64,000 nt of DNA from an uncultured Monoglobus sp. (GTDB taxonomy: Bacteria > Bacillota > Clostridia > Monoglobales > Monoglobaceae), in the NCBI GenBank assembly GCA_947630135.1, contig CANRGH010000002.1, positions 62,001-126,000 on the forward strand, read 5' to 3'. Below the pieces are notes generated by a model, which was not told the DNA's origin, searched no databases, and saw nothing but the letters and a program-made list of their open reading frames with translations. Below are positions 11,679 through 20,114 of the stretch, piece by piece. How positions within the stretch are numbered: the first letter of the stretch is position 1; every line of letters begins with the position of its first letter. Both the position numbers and the translations under genes were made by a program.

Positions 11679-14600
11679 CTATTTTTTATATCTTGACATC
11701 ATTGCCGCGGCTTCCGCTCTGGTGGCGCTGCCCGCGGGTCTGAGCGTTCCGTCCTCATAGCCGTTTATTATTCCGGCTCCGCATGCCCATTGCATTGCCT
11801 CATAAGCGTAGCCGCTTATTGACGACGCGTCCGCGTAGCCCGAAACATCTGCGCTCGCGTCAGTGGACACAATGGTTCCACTTGCCGAAGCGTATCTGTA
11901 AAGGATAGCCGCGATCTGCTCGCGCGTGACGTTGTCGTTGGGGCTGAACGTTGTGTCGCTCGTGCCGTTGACTATTCCGCTTGTCTCGGCGGCCGCGATA
12001 TACGGCGCGAACCACTCGGACGCGGGAACGTCGCTGAAGCTTGAGGTTCCGCCCGGAGCAATTCCGAACAGGCCTACCGCCATCTTTGTGAATTCCGCTC
12101 TTGTGATATTGTCGTCGGGAACAAATATTGTCGGAGTCTCGCCGTTGATTATTCCCGCGTTATACAGATCCATAATGTAGCTGTATGCCCAATAATCGGC
12201 GGGAACGTCCTCGAATACGGTCGTTGTGACCGGATTTGATGTCACTGTCGTGTCCGGGGCGTTTGTCGCCTCGGGCTGAGCCGTCGCGTTCGGATCCGCC
12301 GTGGCGGAGGGCCTGGGCGTCGCGGTGGCGGCGTTTCCTGTGCCGAATGTGCTGCCGCTGATCGTTCCGCCTCCGTAAGAGGGTTTGCGTGTCGGCGACG
12401 GCGCGGGCGACGGTGATGCCGCCTCAAACGTGTTCTCGACATCGAGCTTAACAGAATAGCTCTTTCCCTGACTGTCCTCGATCACAAGCTCGTGCGTGCC
12501 GTTAGGCAGTGTGTCAAGGAATTCCGGAGTGAAGGTAATGGTGCCTTCATTAACGACGTAGCTGTTCTTGGGAACGACATTGCCGTTGAGGGTAACCTCG
12601 TATACATCCGTTGTTATGCTCGGCAGAGCAACCACAACATCCGCGGGTTTTGCTCCGTCGAATTTTTGCTCGCTCAAGGGTTGAGGCGTCGCCGTAGGTT
12701 CCGTCGTAGGCTCTGCTGTGGGAGCCGCGGTCGGCTTGTCGGTTATCGGTGTTGCCGTGGGCTCAGATGTGGGCTCCGTCGTAGGCTCCGTCGCACCGGG
12801 AGTTGCGGTCGGCTCATCGGTTGTCGGTGTTGCCGAGGGCTCCGCCGTAGGCTCTGCCGTAGGAGCCGCGGTCGGTTGATCTGCTGTCGGCGTTGCCGTG
12901 GGCTCCGCCACACCGGGAGTCGCGGTCGGTTCGTCGGTTATCGGTGTTGCCGAGGGCTCCTCTGTGGGCTCTGCCGCAGCGGGAGTCGCGGTCGGTTCGT
13001 CGGTTATCGGCGTTGCCGAGGGCTCTGCCGTAGGAGCCGCGGTCGGCTGATCGGTTATCGGTGTCGCTGTGGGTTCTGTCGTGGGCTCCGCCGTAGGAGC
13101 CGCGGTTGCGGGAGCGGATGTGGGAGCGTTCGGGTCGGCAAGCAGCTTCAAATATTTGAAGTTTCCAATATATCTGCCGGCTCCCGCTCCCGTGATTTCA
13201 AGTGTAACGCTGCCCGAGGCGGTTTTGTTTGAAATGTCAACCGTAAAGTCCTGATAATCATTCCAACCGGAGGTTCCCAAATCTTTAAATTCCGCGACAA
13301 CGGCGCCGCCTATTTTGACCGTCACGTTTACCTTGTTGGGATTGTTGTTTGTTCCCGTTTCTTTTGACATATTTATTACTGCCTTAGCGTATTTGCCGGC
13401 AAGGTCAATATCGGGAAGCGTGAAAATCGCTATATCATCAGATGTTGCTTTAACGCTGTCGGGACGAATAATATCGCCGTCAGCCATCATTTTTCCGCCG
13501 TTTGACGATGTTATTGAATTTTCGCCGAAGTTCAGCGTTGCGGATCCGTCGGCGTTTTCCGTGATCGTGCCGTACTGAGTCGCTGCATCCGGCGTCGGTT
13601 CGGGCTCGGGAGTCGTAGCGGCGGGAGGTTCCTTGACCGTCTCCCCGTCACCGAGGACTCGCTTGTATGTAACCCAAACATCGCGCATTTTAAAGATTTC
13701 CGGGCCGGGCGTAACGGACATAATCAGCTTGCCTTTTTCATAATTTGTCGGGAATTTAGCAAATTTATATGTTTCCGTTTTATTGTTTGAACCAAAGCCT
13801 TCCATGGTAATTGTTTGGTCTTTATAGTTAATGCAGACCGTAACCTTTGACGGAACTCCCTTTTCAAATTTTCCGCAGGCGTTAAGCCACTGATTGGGAG
13901 TGTTGCTTGATCCGCTGAAGCCGCTTGTGCCCGAGTCGATCGTGTCAAGCTGGTTCCAGTGACCGAGCTTGGAATAGAGAAATCTTGACGTAATGTCGCT
14001 TCCCTCGCCTCTCAGCTCGATAAAGCCGTTGCCGGTTGTTTCGGGTTTGACGTCAAGCGTGTATGTGACGGTGATCACGTCGCTTTTCAGAATATCCTCA
14101 TCAGCGCCGTTATCCGTCGCGAGTTTGATCAGATCATATGTCTTATTTCCGTCTGTTTCGGCATACGATATTTTTGTGCTTATCGTCTCGTCGACCTGCT
14201 TTTCCGCCTTAACGTTAAGAGCTGATGATTTGCCGGTTATGCCATTAACAACGGTTTTGCCCCCTTCCGGCTCGGTTATTGTCATGTCAATGCTTGATGA
14301 AACAACTGTTGCTTCATATTCAATTCCCTCCGCGCTTGCCGGAATGTTTTCGAGTGTCCCCGAGGCCGTTTTCTCGCCGGCTTTCATAACAATGTCCTGA
14401 GACTTGATCAAAGCGTCGTTCTTTGTGATCGTAACCGTATATGTGCAGTCTTCTTCAAGCGCCGCGCTCGCGCTGACCGTAACGGGAATATCAAATACAT
14501 TTTCGGTGTTTGACGTGGGATTGATCGTAACGGGAACTGATTTTTTGTCGCCAATTGTAGTGCCTTTTTCCCTCGCGTACAGAGTAACCTCGCTTGTGAT

Positions 14601-17600
14601 CGCGGGCATACCCGCCGCGGGGCGAATAACTGTCAGTTTTGTTCCGTCAGCCGATACAACAGCGTTGGACGAGGCCGATTCCCACTTAAATTCAATACCG
14701 GCGGGAGGGGTCGGAAGGCTGATCTCTGTCGCTTCGCCCTCGGGTATGGTGACTGAAGCGCCGTTGATGGCCGCGTCAACCGCCTTTAACTGTTCGCCGA
14801 AGTTCATGGGATCCCAATCGTCCGTCCAGCCGCCGCGATTGTCCGCCGCCCAGCTTCCGTTGTCCGCCGAGAAATAGTTCCTTGGATTGAACTCGAGAAT
14901 TTGCCAATCGTCAAGAACCGTGCCCATGCCTTGGCCGCCTTCCTCGGCCGACGCGTTCTTTACGCGTCCGCTGAGATCAGTCGCGGCGCCGCTCGCGTTA
15001 TAAGTGCCGTTCTCAAAAAATCTTGCAAGTTCCTTCTTGCTTCCGCTCATGTCTCTCCAGCCCTCGGCGCCTATTCCCGCTTTGCTCAGGCCGGTCGATT
15101 TATTATCGTCGATCTTGGTGTTGCGGAATGTTATCTGCGCGCCCTGTCCCCAAGGTCTGCCGTAAAGCGAGTTTGTTATATTGTCTCTAACGTTATATAC
15201 CTCGCAGTTATAGAATAAATATCCGTATTTTTTGTTCGAGTCATGATTTGCGGCGGTGATCGTAGCGCCGTAATCCTTGTCGGACATGCCTTCGGCGCCG
15301 AGCTTACAATTGTCAAACACAACCGTCGCGCCGGCGTATATATAGTCCGTTCCGCCGATCAGATCACAATTTTTAAAGTAAATTCTTTCCTCGCCCACAT
15401 ATATCGAGTCCTGATTGCCGCGCGCGCGAACGTTCTCGAAGGTGATTTTGTCGCCGTTATAAACCGAAATGGCGTGTCCTCTTTCGTTAAATCCGCTCGA
15501 TCTTGCCAGCCACGCGCTTTCGCCCGGAGTGAGCGCGCGAGATGAGTTTGCGTATTTAGTGAGGTTGACTGTGCCGTCGGAATTTAAAAGATCATTTGGC
15601 TTTGATTCAACGGTGTTTTCATCGCAGATCGCGAGCTTATCTCTGTACGGCAGAGCAGCTTTCCCTGTGGACGCGTCTATATTCGGGGTGAGATGAGCGT
15701 CCTTCTCGCCTTGAGTTACCATAACGGGAACGCTGTTTACGATATTAAAGTCCTTGACGGTAATATTTTTCGAGCCGCCCCGGATGATCAGAGGCGCCAT
15801 GTTGGCAAGTCCTCCGGTGTTGCCGAGGTTAATATCGCCGTTTACCGTGTCTGTATGCTCTTTTCCTGCCAGATCCTTGTATGTAAGCTTTGTGCCTTTG
15901 GGTACTACGTCGCCCACGTTATAGGTCTTTCCCGATGCGTCCTTCGGCGGATTGCTGTACCAGTCGATATTCGGGTTGTACGAGCCGCTCAGGTCGCAGT
16001 TGGCGGCGGAATAACCCGTGCAGTAATACCAGTGCAGGTTGACCTTTCCCGATGTGCCGGGTGTCTGCCGGAGCGTTATGAACGCCGCGCCGTCAAAAAT
16101 TACCTGCTCCTCATAGTCGCCGGGGTTCACGTTTATCGTAACCGCGTCGGCCTCGCTTTGAGGCTTGAGCGCCTTTGCCTTTGCGACTGCCGTGCTTATG
16201 GTTTTGAAATTGGTATCCGACTCTGCCGCCGACGAATTGACCGTCAAAGTTTTGGGCGCGGGAGCGCTCGTCGCCGTGGGAGCGGACGTTGCTGTCGGAG
16301 CGTTTGTCGCCGTTGGAGCGGGCGTCTCTGTCGGAGCGCTTGTCGCCGTGGGAGCGGATGTCTCTGTCGGAGCGCTTGTCGCTGTGGGAGCGGGCGTCTC
16401 TGTCGGAGCGCTTGTCGCCGTTGGAGCGGGCGTCTCTGTCGGAGCGCTTGTCGCCGTGGGAACGGGAGCCGCTGTCGGAGCGTTTGTCGCCGTTGGAGCG
16501 GGCGTCTCTGTCGGAGCACTTGTCGCTGTGGGAGCGGGCGTCTCTGTCGGAGCGCTTGTCGCCGTGGGAACGGGCGTCGCTGTCGGCATTGTTCCGTCGT
16601 TATAAAATCTGATGTACACATAATTTCCGGCATATGTTGCCGTAGTGGTGATCTCGAGAGTAACGGCGCCTGACGCGGTTGTGTTTGTCAAATCGATAAT
16701 ATTTTCCGCGTAGGCGTTCCAGCCCTCGCTCGGGATTGTTATACTGTCGGCAACGGCGTCGCCTCCTACCTTAAGGATAACGGATGTGGTGTTTTCGCCG
16801 CCGCCCGTCGAGGCGTATATAGCCGCTTTGTTATACTTGCCTCCGAGATCAATATCGGGATATGTGATCGTGTTGTTTCCGCTCAGATTATCGCTTTGAG
16901 CCACATAGTCGCCGTTAAGGTCTTTAAAATATGAGCCGTTGTTATGCGAGACTTCGTTGCTCAAAACAACGCTGCCGTGGCTCGTGACGGATTCGCTGCC
17001 CATATAGAGATAAAGGCCGTCGTTTTCGGTTCCGTCGCGCTCTTCGGTATAACCAAATCCCGGACGGACAGTCGGCCTCGGTGTGTTAGTCGGCTGATTT
17101 GGATCATCGGGCTTGATCGAATTCGCATCGCCCTCTTTGATCACAAGGTTTTTGAAGTTGCCCGTAAGGTCGTTTCCGTCATTGCTCGTTTCCGCTGTTT
17201 TAATAAAAACGGCTTTTTCGCCCTGCGCGGACGCGACGGTTTTAAGCTGCTTTTCGACAAAATTCCAGTTTCCGTCCGGGCCCGAGTAATCCTTAAGCTC
17301 CGCGATCAACACGCCTTCATTCTCAAGGTCGGGCGCGGCTGCGCCGCTTATTTTTTTATCGTCGAGACCTTGAGTGTAATACGCGTCGGTTTCGGCTGCC
17401 GAGCCCTTGAGAGGCATTGCGTAGACCATGAGATCCGCGGTGTATTGATTTGTCAGAGCCCATTCGACCGAAACGTCAACGAACTCCGGAAGATTTGCCG
17501 TGCCCGCGTAAGCGATCGCGCCGCTTGACGTGCCGTCAATAAAATCTTCCTTGACCGCGAAAAACTGATTGTTTCCGGTTCCCGCCCACGCGGCCTTGAA

Positions 17601-17714
17601 AGTGGCGAAATCAGCCACGGGGTCGCCCTTTGCCGCGAATGCCGGCGCGGACGTGAACATTGTCATAACCATAGCCGCCGCGAGAATTAAAGATAATACT
17701 TTTGATTTTTTCAT
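11679..17714 (-). CDS. SLH-anchored multidomain pectinesterase (CE8)
   Basis: 2011 residues. Signal peptide 1-27 ends AFA. Then: an N-terminal beta domain (30-200), a CBM-like domain A (218-372), Pro/Thr linker 1 (376-490), and CE8 pectin methylesterase (490-965). CE8 residues match the family: Gln768-Asp769 in QDSIY, Asp790 in GGTDYIYAG and Arg853 in YGRPW, with spacing close to characterised enzymes. Next come Ig-like segments (970-1150), a lectin-like domain (1175-1355), CBM-like domain B (1375-1529), Pro/Thr linker 2 (1530-1685), an X2-like domain (1686-1760), and three SLH repeats (1828-2011) for attachment to wall polymer. It should de-esterify pectin at the cell surface. GGAGGAAAT supports ATG 17714. 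Domain B recurs in the divergent gene. Confidence 0.9.
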   Translation of the reverse strand: MKKSKVLSLILAAAMVMTMFTSAPAFAAKGDPVADFATFKAAWAGTGNNQFFAVKEDFIDGTSSGAIAYAGTANLPEFVDVSVEWALTNQYTADLMVYAMPLKGSAAETDAYYTQGLDDKKISGAAAPDLENEGVLIAELKDYSGPDGNWNFVEKQLKTVASAQGEKAVFIKTAETSNDGNDLTGNFKNLVIKEGDANSIKPDDPNQPTNTPRPTVRPGFGYTEERDGTENDGLYLYMGSESVTSHGSVVLSNEVSHNNGSYFKDLNGDYVAQSDNLSGNNTITYPDIDLGGKYNKAAIYASTGGGENTTSVILKVGGDAVADSITIPSEGWNAYAENIIDLTNTTASGAVTLEITTTATYAGNYVYIRFYNDGTMPTATPVPTATSAPTETPAPTATSAPTETPAPTATNAPTAAPVPTATSAPTETPAPTATSAPTETPAPTATSAPTETSAPTATSAPTETPAPTATNAPTATSAPTATSAPAPKTLTVNSSAAESDTNFKTISTAVAKAKALKPQSEADAVTINVNPGDYEEQVIFDGAAFITLRQTPGTSGKVNLHWYYCTGYSAANCDLSGSYNPNIDWYSNPPKDASGKTYNVGDVVPKGTKLTYKDLAGKEHTDTVNGDINLGNTGGLANMAPLIIRGGSKNITVKDFNIVNSVPVMVTQGEKDAHLTPNIDASTGKAALPYRDKLAICDENTVESKPNDLLNSDGTVNLTKYANSSRALTPGESAWLARSSGFNERGHAISVYNGDKITFENVRARGNQDSIYVGEERIYFKNCDLIGGTDYIYAGATVVFDNCKLGAEGMSDKDYGATITAANHDSNKKYGYLFYNCEVYNVRDNITNSLYGRPWGQGAQITFRNTKIDDNKSTGLSKAGIGAEGWRDMSGSKKELARFFENGTYNASGAATDLSGRVKNASAEEGGQGMGTVLDDWQILEFNPRNYFSADNGSWAADNRGGWTDDWDPMNFGEQLKAVDAAINGASVTIPEGEATEISLPTPPAGIEFKWESASSNAVVSADGTKLTVIRPAAGMPAITSEVTLYAREKGTTIGDKKSVPVTINPTSNTENVFDIPVTVSASAALEEDCTYTVTITKNDALIKSQDIVMKAGEKTASGTLENIPASAEGIEYEATVVSSSIDMTITEPEGGKTVVNGITGKSSALNVKAEKQVDETISTKISYAETDGNKTYDLIKLATDNGADEDILKSDVITVTYTLDVKPETTGNGFIELRGEGSDITSRFLYSKLGHWNQLDTIDSGTSGFSGSSNTPNQWLNACGKFEKGVPSKVTVCINYKDQTITMEGFGSNNKTETYKFAKFPTNYEKGKLIMSVTPGPEIFKMRDVWVTYKRVLGDGETVKEPPAATTPEPEPTPDAATQYGTITENADGSATLNFGENSITSSNGGKMMADGDIIRPDSVKATSDDIAIFTLPDIDLAGKYAKAVINMSKETGTNNNPNKVNVTVKIGGAVVAEFKDLGTSGWNDYQDFTVDISNKTASGSVTLEITGAGAGRYIGNFKYLKLLADPNAPTSAPATAAPTAEPTTEPTATPITDQPTAAPTAEPSATPITDEPTATPAAAEPTEEPSATPITDEPTATPGVAEPTATPTADQPTAAPTAEPTAEPSATPTTDEPTATPGATEPTTEPTSEPTATPITDKPTAAPTAEPTTEPTATPQPLSEQKFDGAKPADVVVALPSITTDVYEVTLNGNVVPKNSYVVNEGTITFTPEFLDTLPNGTHELVIEDSQGKSYSVKLDVENTFEAASPSPAPSPTRKPSYGGGTISGSTFGTGNAATATPRPSATADPNATAQPEATNAPDTTVTSNPVTTTVFEDVPADYWAYSYIMDLYNAGIINGETPTIFVPDDNITRAEFTKMAVGLFGIAPGGTSSFSDVPASEWFAPYIAAAETSGIVNGTSDTTFSPNDNVTREQIAAILYRYASASGTIVSTDASADVSGYADASSISGYAYEAMQWACGAGIINGYEDGTLRPAGSATRAEAAAMMSRYKK
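12660..13125 (-). repeat. Pro/Thr linker 2 minisatellite in the pectinesterase gene
   Basis: Imperfect tandem units encode variants of EPTATPITDEPTATP and PTAAPTAEPTTEP. At DNA level GTCGGTTCGTCGGTTATCGG-type blocks recur. Such linkers separate domains in secreted glycan enzymes. Confidence 0.8.
16250..16590 (-). repeat. Pro/Thr linker 1 minisatellite, 36-bp units
   Basis: About nine units of 36 bp encode APTATSAPTETP with small variations (N for S, A for E). High DNA identity between units makes unit-number variation by slippage likely. Confidence 0.85.
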
Positions 17715-18037
17715 ATTTCCTCCTTCCGCGCATAAAAATACGCAAATGAAAATTAAATATTTTTTTCTATTTTAATAGTAATGTCTTGAAATTGAAAAAA
17801 CAAGACAAAAAACAAACAATATTAGCCAAAAGTTGCTATAAATCCGATTGAGTTTAAAATACAGCAATTTTTGTCCATAATTGTTGTTTTTTTGGCTATT
17901 AATATTTTAAACTTCGTGATATAATCAAAATGTGTTCGGTTATATGTGATGACTTGTTTGTTATTTGTTCCGTAAAAAAATAAATTAATATAAAAAATCA
18001 AAATTTATTCGGAAAGAAAGGAAAGGATGAAGAAGAA
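17715..18037. other. AT-rich divergent intergenic region
   Basis: 323 bp between the pectinesterase gene and the divergent secreted-protein gene. It holds a TATAAT (17920-17925) on the plus strand without a good -35, and an inverted pair TAGCCAAAA (17823-17831) and TTTTGGCTA (17890-17898) that could be a shared operator. No coding region is apparent. Confidence 0.5.
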
Positions 18038-19468
18038 ATGAGAAAAAAGATTTTATCCCTTATTGCGGCATTGACGGTTATGTCCGCATTTCTGTCGGGG
18101 GGGGGTACTTTTGTAACGGCTTTTGCCGCTGAGGTTCCCGTAGGTTATGAGCTCGCTTATAAGTATGATTTTAGCGAACTTAAGGAGTTGCCCGAAGATG
18201 AGATTACTAAACTCGAGTACCTAAGCAACACTAAAAAGGGTGATTTAGCTCTTGTTCAAGACGAAAAAATAAATGGAACTGTACTTCAAGTTGATGTTAA
18301 TGAGAGCTGGGCAGGCGTGACTTTTAATTTAGGAAAGATAATTGATCTTCCGGGAACATATATTTTTGATTATGACATAAAAAGTGGAAATGATACAAAA
18401 AGCCTTTTAACAACCAAGCATGACACCAATTCGGACAAAATCGGAGTAGAAAAAACACAAACGGCAACGAATGAATTTACCACTGTTAAATTTAATGAGG
18501 GAGAAGCTGTTAATATAACCGGTAACGAAGCGTATTTTACTATTCAGCTGACTAAAAATGCATCCAATGTAAAATTTTGGATAAGCAGCCTGAGAATTTA
18601 CAAAACGGCTCCCGACTACGGAAATTCCGAGGAAATTGATAGCGGATTAAAATTAACATTCGGACAAAATTCCATAACGGTTGGAGATTTAAGTAGCGGT
18701 GGAAAAATAACACAGGGCAGAACCGACGGTATTAAGTCAATAAACGGTAATACCGCCGAACTGACTTTGCCGTCCGTTGATTTAAACAGCCAATATGACA
18801 GTGTTGTCGTTAATTTATCAAAGCCTGTGACCAAAAATAATCCCAATCCGGTCAGCTTTGAGGTGTTTGTCGGAGGAACGAAGGCCGCCGAGTTTAAAAA
18901 TATTTCAACCCATAAATATGAAGACGGACAAGAACGTTGGGATAAATATTTGGATTTTACAAGCCCGATTCTCGATGAAGCGAAAAGCGCGAAAGGTAAT
19001 GTTGTTTTGAAAATATCGATACCGAGCGGCAGTTACATAGGAAATTTCGCTTACGTAACATTCAAAAAAGATGCGGCAAGCGTGGAGCCGGCCAATCTTA
19101 AAGACGGAGAAGCGGTCGGCGGATATTACACCGAGGGAGACACAGCGGCAGGTGAGGGTAACCCCAAGATCGGAATAATAAGATTTTTCCAGCAATATAA
19201 GGGAAACACTAATATTTCACAATACGGATTTTATTTCGTGGGCAGCGACGGTAAAATACTTGACTATCAAAATTATATTAATGATAATAATTCATTTACC
19301 GAGGATGGATTTTACGGCGATTTGATAAACGCCCAATTCAATACCGCCTATCACGCGAAAGCGTTTGTGGTGACGACCGGAGGACAAATTTACTTTTCGG
19401 ACACAATCACCGGCCGTGCCGATGAAAACAACTGGGTCAAAAATCCAAATTATTCAAAAAATAATTAA
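18038..19468 (+). CDS. Secreted protein with CBM-like domain B, function unknown
   Basis: 476 residues with signal peptide (cleavage near VTAFAA-EV). An N-terminal domain (about 35-190) looks like a galactose-binding-fold carbohydrate module. Residues about 200-342 share sequence with domain B of the divergent pectinesterase: LTFGQNSI, LTLPSVDLNSQYDSVVVNLS, VGGTKAAEF and YIGNFAYVTF. A C-terminal segment (350-470) with YGFYFVGSDGK and AKAFVVTTGGQIYFSD is unrecognised. No catalytic motif is seen; a glycan-binding role is inferred. Base composition is visibly more AT-rich than neighbours, suggesting different ancestry. Nine consecutive G (18097-18105) lie in the signal-peptide codons. It is followed by a 54-codon gene before a terminator. 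Confidence 0.75.
   Translation: MRKKILSLIAALTVMSAFLSGGGTFVTAFAAEVPVGYELAYKYDFSELKELPEDEITKLEYLSNTKKGDLALVQDEKINGTVLQVDVNESWAGVTFNLGKIIDLPGTYIFDYDIKSGNDTKSLLTTKHDTNSDKIGVEKTQTATNEFTTVKFNEGEAVNITGNEAYFTIQLTKNASNVKFWISSLRIYKTAPDYGNSEEIDSGLKLTFGQNSITVGDLSSGGKITQGRTDGIKSINGNTAELTLPSVDLNSQYDSVVVNLSKPVTKNNPNPVSFEVFVGGTKAAEFKNISTHKYEDGQERWDKYLDFTSPILDEAKSAKGNVVLKISIPSGSYIGNFAYVTFKKDAASVEPANLKDGEAVGGYYTEGDTAAGEGNPKIGIIRFFQQYKGNTNISQYGFYFVGSDGKILDYQNYINDNNSFTEDGFYGDLINAQFNTAYHAKAFVVTTGGQIYFSDTITGRADENNWVKNPNYSKNN
18097..18105 (+). repeat. Homopolymeric G9 tract inside a signal peptide
   Basis: TCGGGGGGGGGTAC encodes SGGGT about 20 codons into the secreted-protein gene. Gain or loss of one G would shift the frame. 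No comparable run of G was noticed in the neighbouring genes. Confidence 0.85.
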
Positions 19469-19481
19469 GAGGTGAAATATT

Positions 19482-19646
19482 ATGAATAAAAAATATATAA
19501 ATCCCGAGGCAACAATAACCGTGTTTGAGTGCGAGGACGTTATAACGGTCAGCGGACAGCCGAAAGATCTTGAGACAAGAGATTATAAAAAAGCGGGCTG
19601 GATATCCACGGGCGATATTACAACATGGGGAGATGGCCTCAAATAA
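19482..19646 (+). CDS. 54-residue peptide downstream of the secreted protein
   Basis: ATG at 19482 has GAGGTG 9 nt upstream, and the frame ends at 19646. The peptide begins MNKKYINPEATITVFECEDV, continues ITVSGQPKDLETRDYKKAGW, and ends ISTGDITTWGDGLK. It has no signal peptide, one Cys and an acidic middle. Short proteins with a (K)KYxxPE...F..EDVIT-S start are, as I recall, common and uncharacterised in gut Clostridia. It sits 13 bp after the secreted-protein gene and just before a terminator, so it is co-transcribed. Function unknown; a small accessory or peptide precursor role is speculation. Confidence 0.65.
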   Translation: MNKKYINPEATITVFECEDVITVSGQPKDLETRDYKKAGWISTGDITTWGDGLK

Positions 19647-19660
19647 AATATAAAAATACA

Positions 19661-19700
19661 GGGCGGGAAAGTCATATCGGCTTTCCCGCCCGATTTTATA
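19661..19700 (+). terminator. Rho-independent terminator
   Basis: GGGCGGGAAAG (19661-19671) pairs perfectly with CTTTCCCGCCC (19681-19691), loop 9 nt, followed by GATTTTATA. Confidence 0.88.
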
Positions 19701-19736: not shown

Positions 19737-19765
19737 TTGACAAAAAAATCACGTTTTGCTATAAT
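19737..19765 (+). promoter_or_regulatory. Sigma-A promoter of gatCAB
   Basis: TTGACA (19737-19742) and TATAAT (19760-19765), spacer exactly 17 bp, 61 bp before the gatC start. Confidence 0.88.
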
Positions 19766-19826
19766 TGTTTTCGGTATGTTTAAAATTTATTGAAAATTAT
19801 ATTTTTTAGCGAAAAGAGTGATATTT

Positions 19827-20114
19827 ATGGAAATTACCAAAGAAATGGTCGCGTATGTCGCGGAGCTGTCGAGGCTCAAGCTGAGCGATGAGGAGGCCGA
19901 GACCGCCCGCAAGGGTCTGGGCGAGATCATCGGTTATATGGACGTTCTGAACAATATCGACACCGAGGGCGTCGAGCCGATGTCCCACGCGTTCGCCGTG
20001 AAGAACGTTATGCGCGACGATGTTGTGCGCCCGAGCCACGACAGGGCCGAACTGCTCGCCAACGCGCCCAAGGCGGACGACGAGGCGATCATCGTTCCGA
20101 GAACGGTCGAATAG
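19827..20114 (+). CDS. gatC: Asp-tRNA(Asn)/Glu-tRNA(Gln) amidotransferase subunit C
   Basis: 95 residues, normal for GatC: ITKEMVAYVAELSRLKLSDEE at the start, GYMDVLNNIDTEGVEPMSHA in the middle, and ending IIVPRTVE. It wraps between GatA and GatB and stabilises the complex that makes Gln-tRNA by transamidation. AAGAGTG serves ATG 19827; a GTG nine bases upstream overlaps that site. First gene of gatCAB. Confidence 0.95.
   Translation: MEITKEMVAYVAELSRLKLSDEEAETARKGLGEIIGYMDVLNNIDTEGVEPMSHAFAVKNVMRDDVVRPSHDRAELLANAPKADDEAIIVPRTVE

Follow-up and report, generated by a model that had tools for sequence, protein, structure and literature searches.

A Peptide Encoded Behind a Secreted Protein in Monoglobus Resembles the Precursor of an LPP-like RiPP Pathway

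The Two-gene Unit and Its Surroundings

The DNA analyzed here, referred to as the window, is a 64,000-nucleotide stretch of contig CANRGH010000002.1 from an uncultured Monoglobus sp.; the genome to which it belongs (2.35 Mb in 42 contigs) is denoted G000. On the + strand of the window, a gene encoding a 476-residue protein (18038-19468), the translation of which begins with a signal-peptide-like segment at residues 1-31, is followed after a spacing of 13 nt by a gene encoding a 54-residue peptide (19482-19646). The latter was assigned as precursor-like from its ORF and from matches to paralogues and to a profile. Both ORFs were found where the first-pass annotation had placed a unit consisting of a secreted protein and a 54-residue peptide. 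A GAGGTG ribosome-binding site for the peptide gene could be read from the sequence at 19469-19474 (+). A four-codon upstream ORF (ATG AAG AAG AAA TGA) was observed at 18027-18041, and its stop codon and the start codon of the gene for the secreted protein overlap.

A terminator-like hairpin of 13 pairs, nine of them G-C, followed by a T-rich stretch, lies at 19661-19691 (+), in keeping with the earlier proposal that the unit has its own terminator. Given that two terminator-like sites were found in the region and 2.1 were expected from shuffled sequence, it is the strength of the hairpin itself that supports this assignment. The GC content of the unit, described previously as visibly below that of its neighbors, is 0.40, compared with 0.56 for the flanks and 0.53 for the window. 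All 11 units of the genome proved to be AT-rich (0.386-0.413) relative to their flanks (0.48-0.56), and low GC content is thus a trait of the family. Further downstream, a 12/12 match to the sigma-70 consensus with a 17-nt spacer and a TG before the second hexamer (19737-19765, +) directly precedes an ORF at 19818-20114, which we take to be gatC.

No match over cut-off was obtained when the 476-residue protein was scanned against Pfam and NCBIfam. A BLASTP comparison revealed that residues 191-345 (18608-19072, +) form a domain common to this protein and an SLH-anchored pectinesterase (residues 1378-1527 of the latter; 40% identity over 162 columns, E 7e-22). The pectinesterase, a protein of 2011 residues with SLH domains, CBM_X2 and a PT-rich stretch, is encoded by the divergent neighbor of the unit at 11679-17714 on the - strand. 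The secreted protein ends with a conserved C-terminal domain (19085-19465, +), for which a profile gave 11 matches in the genome, one per unit. An AlphaFold2 model of this domain (mean pLDDT 86.8) contains seven strands and is predicted to be a beta-sandwich, which agrees with the original description of a secreted beta-domain protein. The matches returned by a structure search were Fn3/Ig-like and weak, with none reaching E 0.001. Scans of eight other partner proteins gave two Big_2 matches, of which one was over and one below cut-off, and a single CBM77 match, also below cut-off. Judged by their domains, some of the partners resemble surface proteins with which gut fiber degraders bind polysaccharides. 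Literature searches joining Monoglobus with SLH and pectin returned nothing, and no genome paper was among the 10 of 110 matches listed for Monoglobus pectinilyticus.

Peptide and Partner Are Paired in the Genome and Across the Genus

A search of G000 with the window peptide gave 10 further matches, and a profile built from the 11 peptides gave 11 strong matches. All 11 peptide genes sit downstream of a gene for a secreted protein bearing the same ∼120-residue C-terminal domain. The partners range from 476 to 688 residues, and the gap between partner and peptide is 13-42 nt in 10 of the 11 units and 263 nt in one. Inspection by eye revealed a basic hydrophobic signal at the first Met of 10 partners; in the eleventh (L016), a signal sequence follows a short extension.

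Twelve genomes of the genus were compared. Peptides were present in five of them (11 in G000, 15 in G003, four in G006, seven in G007 and three in G008), and the C-terminal domain was detected in the same five (11, 14, 4, 7 and 3, respectively); neither was found in the other seven. A search for co-occurring homologues had been put forward as the check on the proposed partnership. By coordinates, 38 of the 40 peptides in the five genomes lie 20-306 nt downstream of the shared domain and on its strand. Of the 39 C-terminal domains, 38 are paired with a peptide, the exception being G008:C81 (the pairing table was copied by hand). The two unpaired peptides (L236:3481-3637 and L235:2551-2722) look degenerate, one being without a proper YxxP start and the other a fragment.

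A wider set of 34 distinct units was assembled by pattern, each peptide having YxxP, an [IV]-x-[TS] end, and FEC or YEC, with an upstream ORF of at least 90 residues. In six of the 34 units, a spacer of 230-263 nt separates the partner and peptide genes. One such spacer (L017:7931-8193) folds far better than its shuffled counterparts (z -5.8), is 98% identical in G003 and 93% identical in G007, and gave no Rfam match at E 0.1. Spurious ORFs containing NPLTRLRPQ recur beside units (L003:1119-1343 and L009:1074-1295), which indicates a repeated intergenic DNA element.

The Peptide Has a Predicted Leader and a Variable Core

Alignment of the 11 peptides of the genome revealed invariant residues at Y5, P8, T13, F15, E16, C17, D19, T22, S24 and W49. 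From this alignment and a leader-only profile, residues 1-24 (19482-19553, +) are predicted to form a leader of the type YxxP ... FEC-x-D[VI]IT-x-S. Residues 25-54 (19554-19643, +) form the predicted core, which in the alignments is variable in the middle and conserved at the end, where the invariant Trp is found; the leader/core border would accordingly lie between residues 24 and 25. YxxP was present in all 11 peptides, which had been collected by similarity without requiring the motif. The combination of YxxP with a conserved stretch is characteristic of leader sequences to which RRE (PqqD) domains bind. The wider alignment of 34 peptides gave a similar picture, in which letter invariance is partly by construction because the selection pattern demanded those letters.

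Two descriptions of the peptide in the first-pass annotation require revision. It was termed leaderless, and residues 1-24 look instead like a RiPP-type leader. It was also termed acidic, which is a weak description: the net charge of the window peptide is -2, and values of -3 to +1 were obtained with the other ten members of the genome. The RiPP-type leader, together with the maturation cassette described below, is what is new beyond the first observation.

The peptide gene is real: it has 10 paralogues in the genome, and amino acid change within the family is restrained. For 13 independent family pairs, pS was 0.53 and pN was 0.19, and dN/dS ranged from 0.09 to 0.71 across the 14 closest pairs. 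A signal peptide is absent from the 54-residue peptide, which was unstructured when modeled alone (pLDDT 60, pTM 0.15). No Pfam family was found for any of the 34 peptides, a search of a viral collection with the window peptide gave no confirmed relative, and the 18 confirmed named relatives are all from Monoglobus MAGs. Together with the leader matches in other genomes of the class (see below), the blank Pfam result bears out the remark made at the outset that the peptide resembles short clostridial proteins of no named family.

A Candidate Maturation Cassette Is Conserved in Peptide-positive Monoglobus Genomes

In G000, a set of candidate maturation genes was located on contig C13. A P-loop, HprK-related kinase (C13:32966-33661), which matches models below cut-off, is followed by an MsbA-like ABC pump on the opposite strand (C13:33669-35339), a strong stand-alone RRE identified in a PqqD search (C13:35433-35696), and a small SpI-like peptidase with GTSMxP and LHR motifs (C13:35709-36170), for which the matches to SipW and archaeal signal peptidase I models were below cut-off. 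A secreted Cu_amine_oxidN1 protein (C13:32442-32954; L210:5443-5955) adjoins the kinase, as do its homologues in each of the remaining four Monoglobus cassettes. RRE, kinase, SpI-like peptidase and ABC pump are adjacent in all five peptide-positive Monoglobus genomes; in G007, the RRE is absent from the gene calls and was placed in the same spot by profile searches. An NTP_transf_5 protein (PF14907 nucleotidyltransferase) is likewise present in all five. It is encoded beside the cassette in G006, G007 and G008, and away from it in G000 (C17:9615). The precursor genes of G000 lie on other contigs than the cassette.

Solved structures matched by the RRE profile include TbiB1, TfuB1, PbaB1 (9x90) and, ranked last of the four, LppB (9x8z), and the RRE scores no better against LppB than against the lasso RREs. 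The best NCBIfam matches of the cassette PqqD protein were also lasso RRE models, below cut-off. With the register of the pocket taken from the profile alignment to solved structures, the equivalent of LppB N33 is kept in 8/8 RREs and that of D70 in 7/8, and the position of F74 is aromatic in 8/8. A Pfam scan covering 15 of the 19 called ORFs in the 16-kb cassette region gave no macrolactam synthetase and no B2 protease.

Double-glycine export was considered as a separate candidate. Peptidase_C39 was over cut-off in six of 32 genomes. Given that just two of the 14 peptide-positive genomes carry it (G006 and G347), C39-dependent export is not the general route.

Peptide, RRE and Short-form Kinase Co-occur in the Class

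A set of 32 genomes was searched for the cassette components. Strong stand-alone PqqD proteins (E 5e-14 or better) were detected in the five Monoglobus and nine other genomes that encode peptides, and NTP_transf_5 was present in 14 of these 14 peptide genomes versus one of the 18 others. Within the genus, a strong PqqD protein together with NTP_transf_5 was observed in 5/5 genomes with peptides and 0/7 without. A weaker type of PqqD protein (E 1e-9 to 6e-9, over the Pfam cut-off) is present in five of the seven peptide-free Monoglobus genomes, one of which (G011) has two. In the 11 other peptide-free genomes, PqqD was strong in two (G018 and G027), weak in two (G038 and G040) and not detected in seven. 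G018 combines PqqD with a long-form kinase and NTP_transf_5, and G027 combines PqqD with a long-form kinase; neither has a peptide. No kinase was found in the five peptide-free Monoglobus genomes drawn for this search from the seven, G001 and G004 being outside the draw.

The analysis was extended to 391 genomes of the class. The leader-only profile (26 positions) matched 42 genomes at E 0.05, the RRE profile matched 117 (E 1e-6), and the kinase profile matched 110 (E 1e-10). Two forms of the kinase were distinguished, a short one (60 genomes, full-model match) and a long one; the short-form set was compiled by hand from matches that begin no later than model position 7, with the table copied by hand. 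Short-form kinase was present in 37 of the 42 peptide genomes (Fisher p 1.4e-30) and RRE in 38 of the 42 (p 3.7e-18), although both p values overstate the case because the genomes are related. Long-form kinase only was seen in 2/42. The 20 genomes with the strongest peptides all encode short-form kinase and RRE. For peptide and kinase, the count by genus (sets counted by hand) is 26 of 30. The kinase was missing from five of the 42 peptide genomes. In four of these (G069, G212, G299 and G316), the leader matches are weak and lie in long or interrupted frames; that in G286 looks real. No peptide with this leader was detected in 23 of the 60 short-kinase genomes. The long-form kinase alone is not tied to the peptides, and its substrate is therefore probably another precursor family. 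In sister cassettes (L218, L226 and L227), the long kinase form is accompanied by an SLH533-type secreted protein.

Leader matches reach 15 in G053, 13 in G245 and seven in G288; a few of the weakest matches across the class sit in long frames and are probably false. The surroundings of 44 leader matches were examined; these matches had been selected in 11 of the 42 genomes with peptides. In these distant genomes, 42 of the 44 peptides start no more than 45 nt behind an upstream ORF or slightly overlap it. The upstream ORF is complete and has 150 residues or more in 32 cases, in 28 of which its N terminus is signal-like and hydrophobic, compared with a background of 61/198 among proteins of that size from cassette regions. 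Across the class, the leader is conserved and the core is variable. Partners differ between genera and the layout is constant. Peptide homologues do adjoin secreted-protein genes in other genomes, which speaks for the undescribed partnership suspected from the window.

In seven genomes, the components were found at one locus. Here, a large ORF, the peptide, the kinase and the RRE follow one another on one strand (G250, G352, G120, G303, G123, G126 and G083). The peptides lie 0.1-1.5 kb before the kinase, and the gap between the large ORF and the peptide is 5-133 nt in 7/7. In G250, G352 and G120, the large ORF is signal-like at its start, and a gene for an SpI-like peptidase comes after the RRE. 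In G123 and G126, the start of the large ORF is beyond the contig end, and a signal could not be made out clearly in G303 and G083. Partner, precursor and enzymes, scattered in Monoglobus, are thus physically tied at these shared loci.

Relation of the Core to the Partner

The ends of the cores were compared with the partner proteins. Single alignments with the last hairpin of the partner, such as that of SAKSYVKVGNGASWSD with YAKAYVKIGNQTIWSD, are striking, and the C-terminal domain gives higher core scores than does the middle of the partner (rank test p 4e-24, with pairs that are not independent). The idea that the core is a copy of this hairpin was rejected, since just two of the 34 partners score 5 bits or more with a profile built from the 34 cores; the controls at 5 bits gave 5/1020 for shuffled sequences, 0/34 for reversed sequences and 0/302 for other proteins. 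What is left is a hint that some core ends resemble the last hairpin of the partner. Distances among the peptides and among the partner domains were uncorrelated (Mantel r 0.06, with 438 of 2000 permutations as high), as were those of cores and partner domains (Mantel r 0.08, 165 of 2000 permutations as high), and thus no sign of pair-specific coevolution was observed.

Comparison with Known Systems

The kinase and the PqqD protein show similarity to those of the SynChlorMet and HprK-rel-A/B cassettes (NCBIfam ScmC, ScmD, HprK_rel_A/B and PqqD_rel_X). Among the matches listed, the curated cut-offs of these models are well above the scores reached here, and we know of no linked precursor family of this kind in such cassettes.

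A closer likeness is to the system for linear polyphosphorylated peptides (LPPs; LppA/K/B/S/D/N) of Paenibacillus alginolyticus, described in 2026 (PMC13381572). The LPP set consists of an SpI-like peptidase, a discrete RRE, an HprK-like kinase, an NTP transferase and an MsbA-like pump, and the same five core functions are represented in Monoglobus. LPP precursors, of which there are one to three per cluster, carry a YxxP leader and a core Ser that becomes multiply phosphorylated. The leader is cleaved by a SipW-like peptidase with the help of the RRE, in which N33 and D70 of LppB fix the Pro and Tyr of the motif; the biological role is unknown according to the authors (PMC13381572). The Monoglobus peptides share with these precursors the YxxP leader, a variable core and a Ser just after the leader motif, and no lasso cyclase was seen among the scanned ORFs beside the Monoglobus cassette. 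By contrast, LPP precursors are encoded within their cluster, whereas Monoglobus has up to 15 precursors per genome, scattered, each behind a secreted-protein gene. A precursor inside the cluster was not found in G000 but was found in seven other genomes of the class. The LPP consensus YxxPxVLxHQxIxFETxxS also differs from that of the Monoglobus family, YxxPxAEITxFECADVITxS. Because the leader differs after YxxP, the system was classed as LPP-like and not as an LPP member. The LPP experiments and genome mapping (PMC13381572) concern Bacilli, whereas the systems described here are from Clostridia.

The pathways for paeninodin-type phosphorylated lasso peptides, as outlined in the same source, likewise combine an HprK-like kinase, an NTP transferase, a discrete RRE and a [Y/W]xxP leader (PMC13381572). 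They differ in that the motif has Tyr here and not Trp, and in that no macrolactam cyclase or B2 protease was observed among the scanned neighbors of the cassette. No description of a secreted-protein/precursor pairing was found in the sections of PMC13381572 consulted or in literature searches, which covered few subscription journals.

A Proposed Pathway and Its Alternatives

We consider it probable that these genes constitute an LPP-like RiPP pathway that acts in trans in G000 and serves many precursors, every one of them encoded together with a secreted protein of its own. Maturation of the peptides is argued from the leader, the content of the cassette, the co-occurrence and the shared loci. 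In this pathway, the 54-residue peptide would be the precursor of a RiPP (a peptide made on the ribosome and modified after translation), the 24-residue leader of which would be gripped through YxxP by the free-standing RRE (PqqD). The HprK-related kinase would modify the precursor, most likely at the conserved Ser at the leader/core border, the SipW-like peptidase would take off the leader, and the MsbA-like ABC pump would export the core; the NTP_transf_5 enzyme may attach a further group. The enzymes of C13 and the NTP_transf_5 protein of C17 would serve all 11 precursors of G000 in trans. Each precursor would be translated together with its own secreted beta-domain protein and probably also exported alongside it, so that the modified core would most likely act outside the cell on or with its partner, for instance as a ligand, an anchor or an assembly aid. 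The constant pairing points to such a joint role and suggests that the cell may make a custom modified peptide for each such secreted protein.

Alternatively, the peptide could be an unmodified cytosolic helper of the secreted protein, such as a secretion chaperone or a translation-coupled partner, with the RRE cassette being unrelated. The lack of a signal peptide, the short spacing (13-42 nt in 10/11 units) and the presence of one peptide per partner would all suit such a role. We nevertheless regard it as unlikely, given that it leaves the RRE-type YxxP, the co-occurrence with RRE and kinase, and the one-locus cases unexplained, and that peptide and partner distances are uncorrelated.

The same lack of pair-specific coevolution, and the conserved leader and variable core across the class, would be expected were the peptides independent RiPPs of the bacteriocin or signal type that merely share operons with surface proteins. 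The layout is too regular for chance on this account, both in Monoglobus, where one domain family accounts for nearly all pairings, and in the 11 distant genomes, where the partners are mostly signal-peptide proteins, and a large partner-like ORF precedes the peptide in 7/7 cassette-linked cases. This explanation is therefore judged decidedly unlikely.

Assignment of the peptides as lasso precursors, to which the YxxP leader, whose final part contains a conserved Thr, and the lasso RRE models that best match the PqqD protein (below cut-off) might point, is very improbable, since neither macrolactam synthetase nor B2 protease was found in the 15 scanned ORFs of the 19 around the cassette, and the family shows no conserved Asp or Glu at core position 7-9 (by eye). 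Polymorphic toxins have a variable C-terminal toxin domain, the reverse of the pattern seen here, where the C-terminal domain, predicted to be an Fn3/Ig-like sandwich, and the peptide are conserved and the middle is variable; a secreted toxin with a small immunity protein, despite a matching two-gene secreted-plus-small layout in many copies, can thus be dismissed as scarcely credible.

Within the favored LPP-like pathway, a more specific and rather doubtful possibility concerns surface assembly in Clostridia. Here, one cassette would produce many modified peptides that dock on co-encoded secreted proteins and tie them, via a phosphate-linked group added by the NTP transferase, to the envelope or to polysaccharide. 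Docking might perhaps occur by addition of a beta-strand to the C-terminal sandwich that the end of the core resembles. Were this the case, the RiPPs would be anchors or cofactors of secreted proteins and not antibiotics or signals.

The presence of one secreted protein per precursor would provide a handle on the target of LPP-type peptides, the roles of which are given as unknown by the authors of PMC13381572. With matches to this leader in 42 of the 391 class genomes, RiPP precursor genes can lie far from those of the enzymes and be hidden as hypothetical ORFs of 50-60 residues, and can thus be missed by cluster-based mining.
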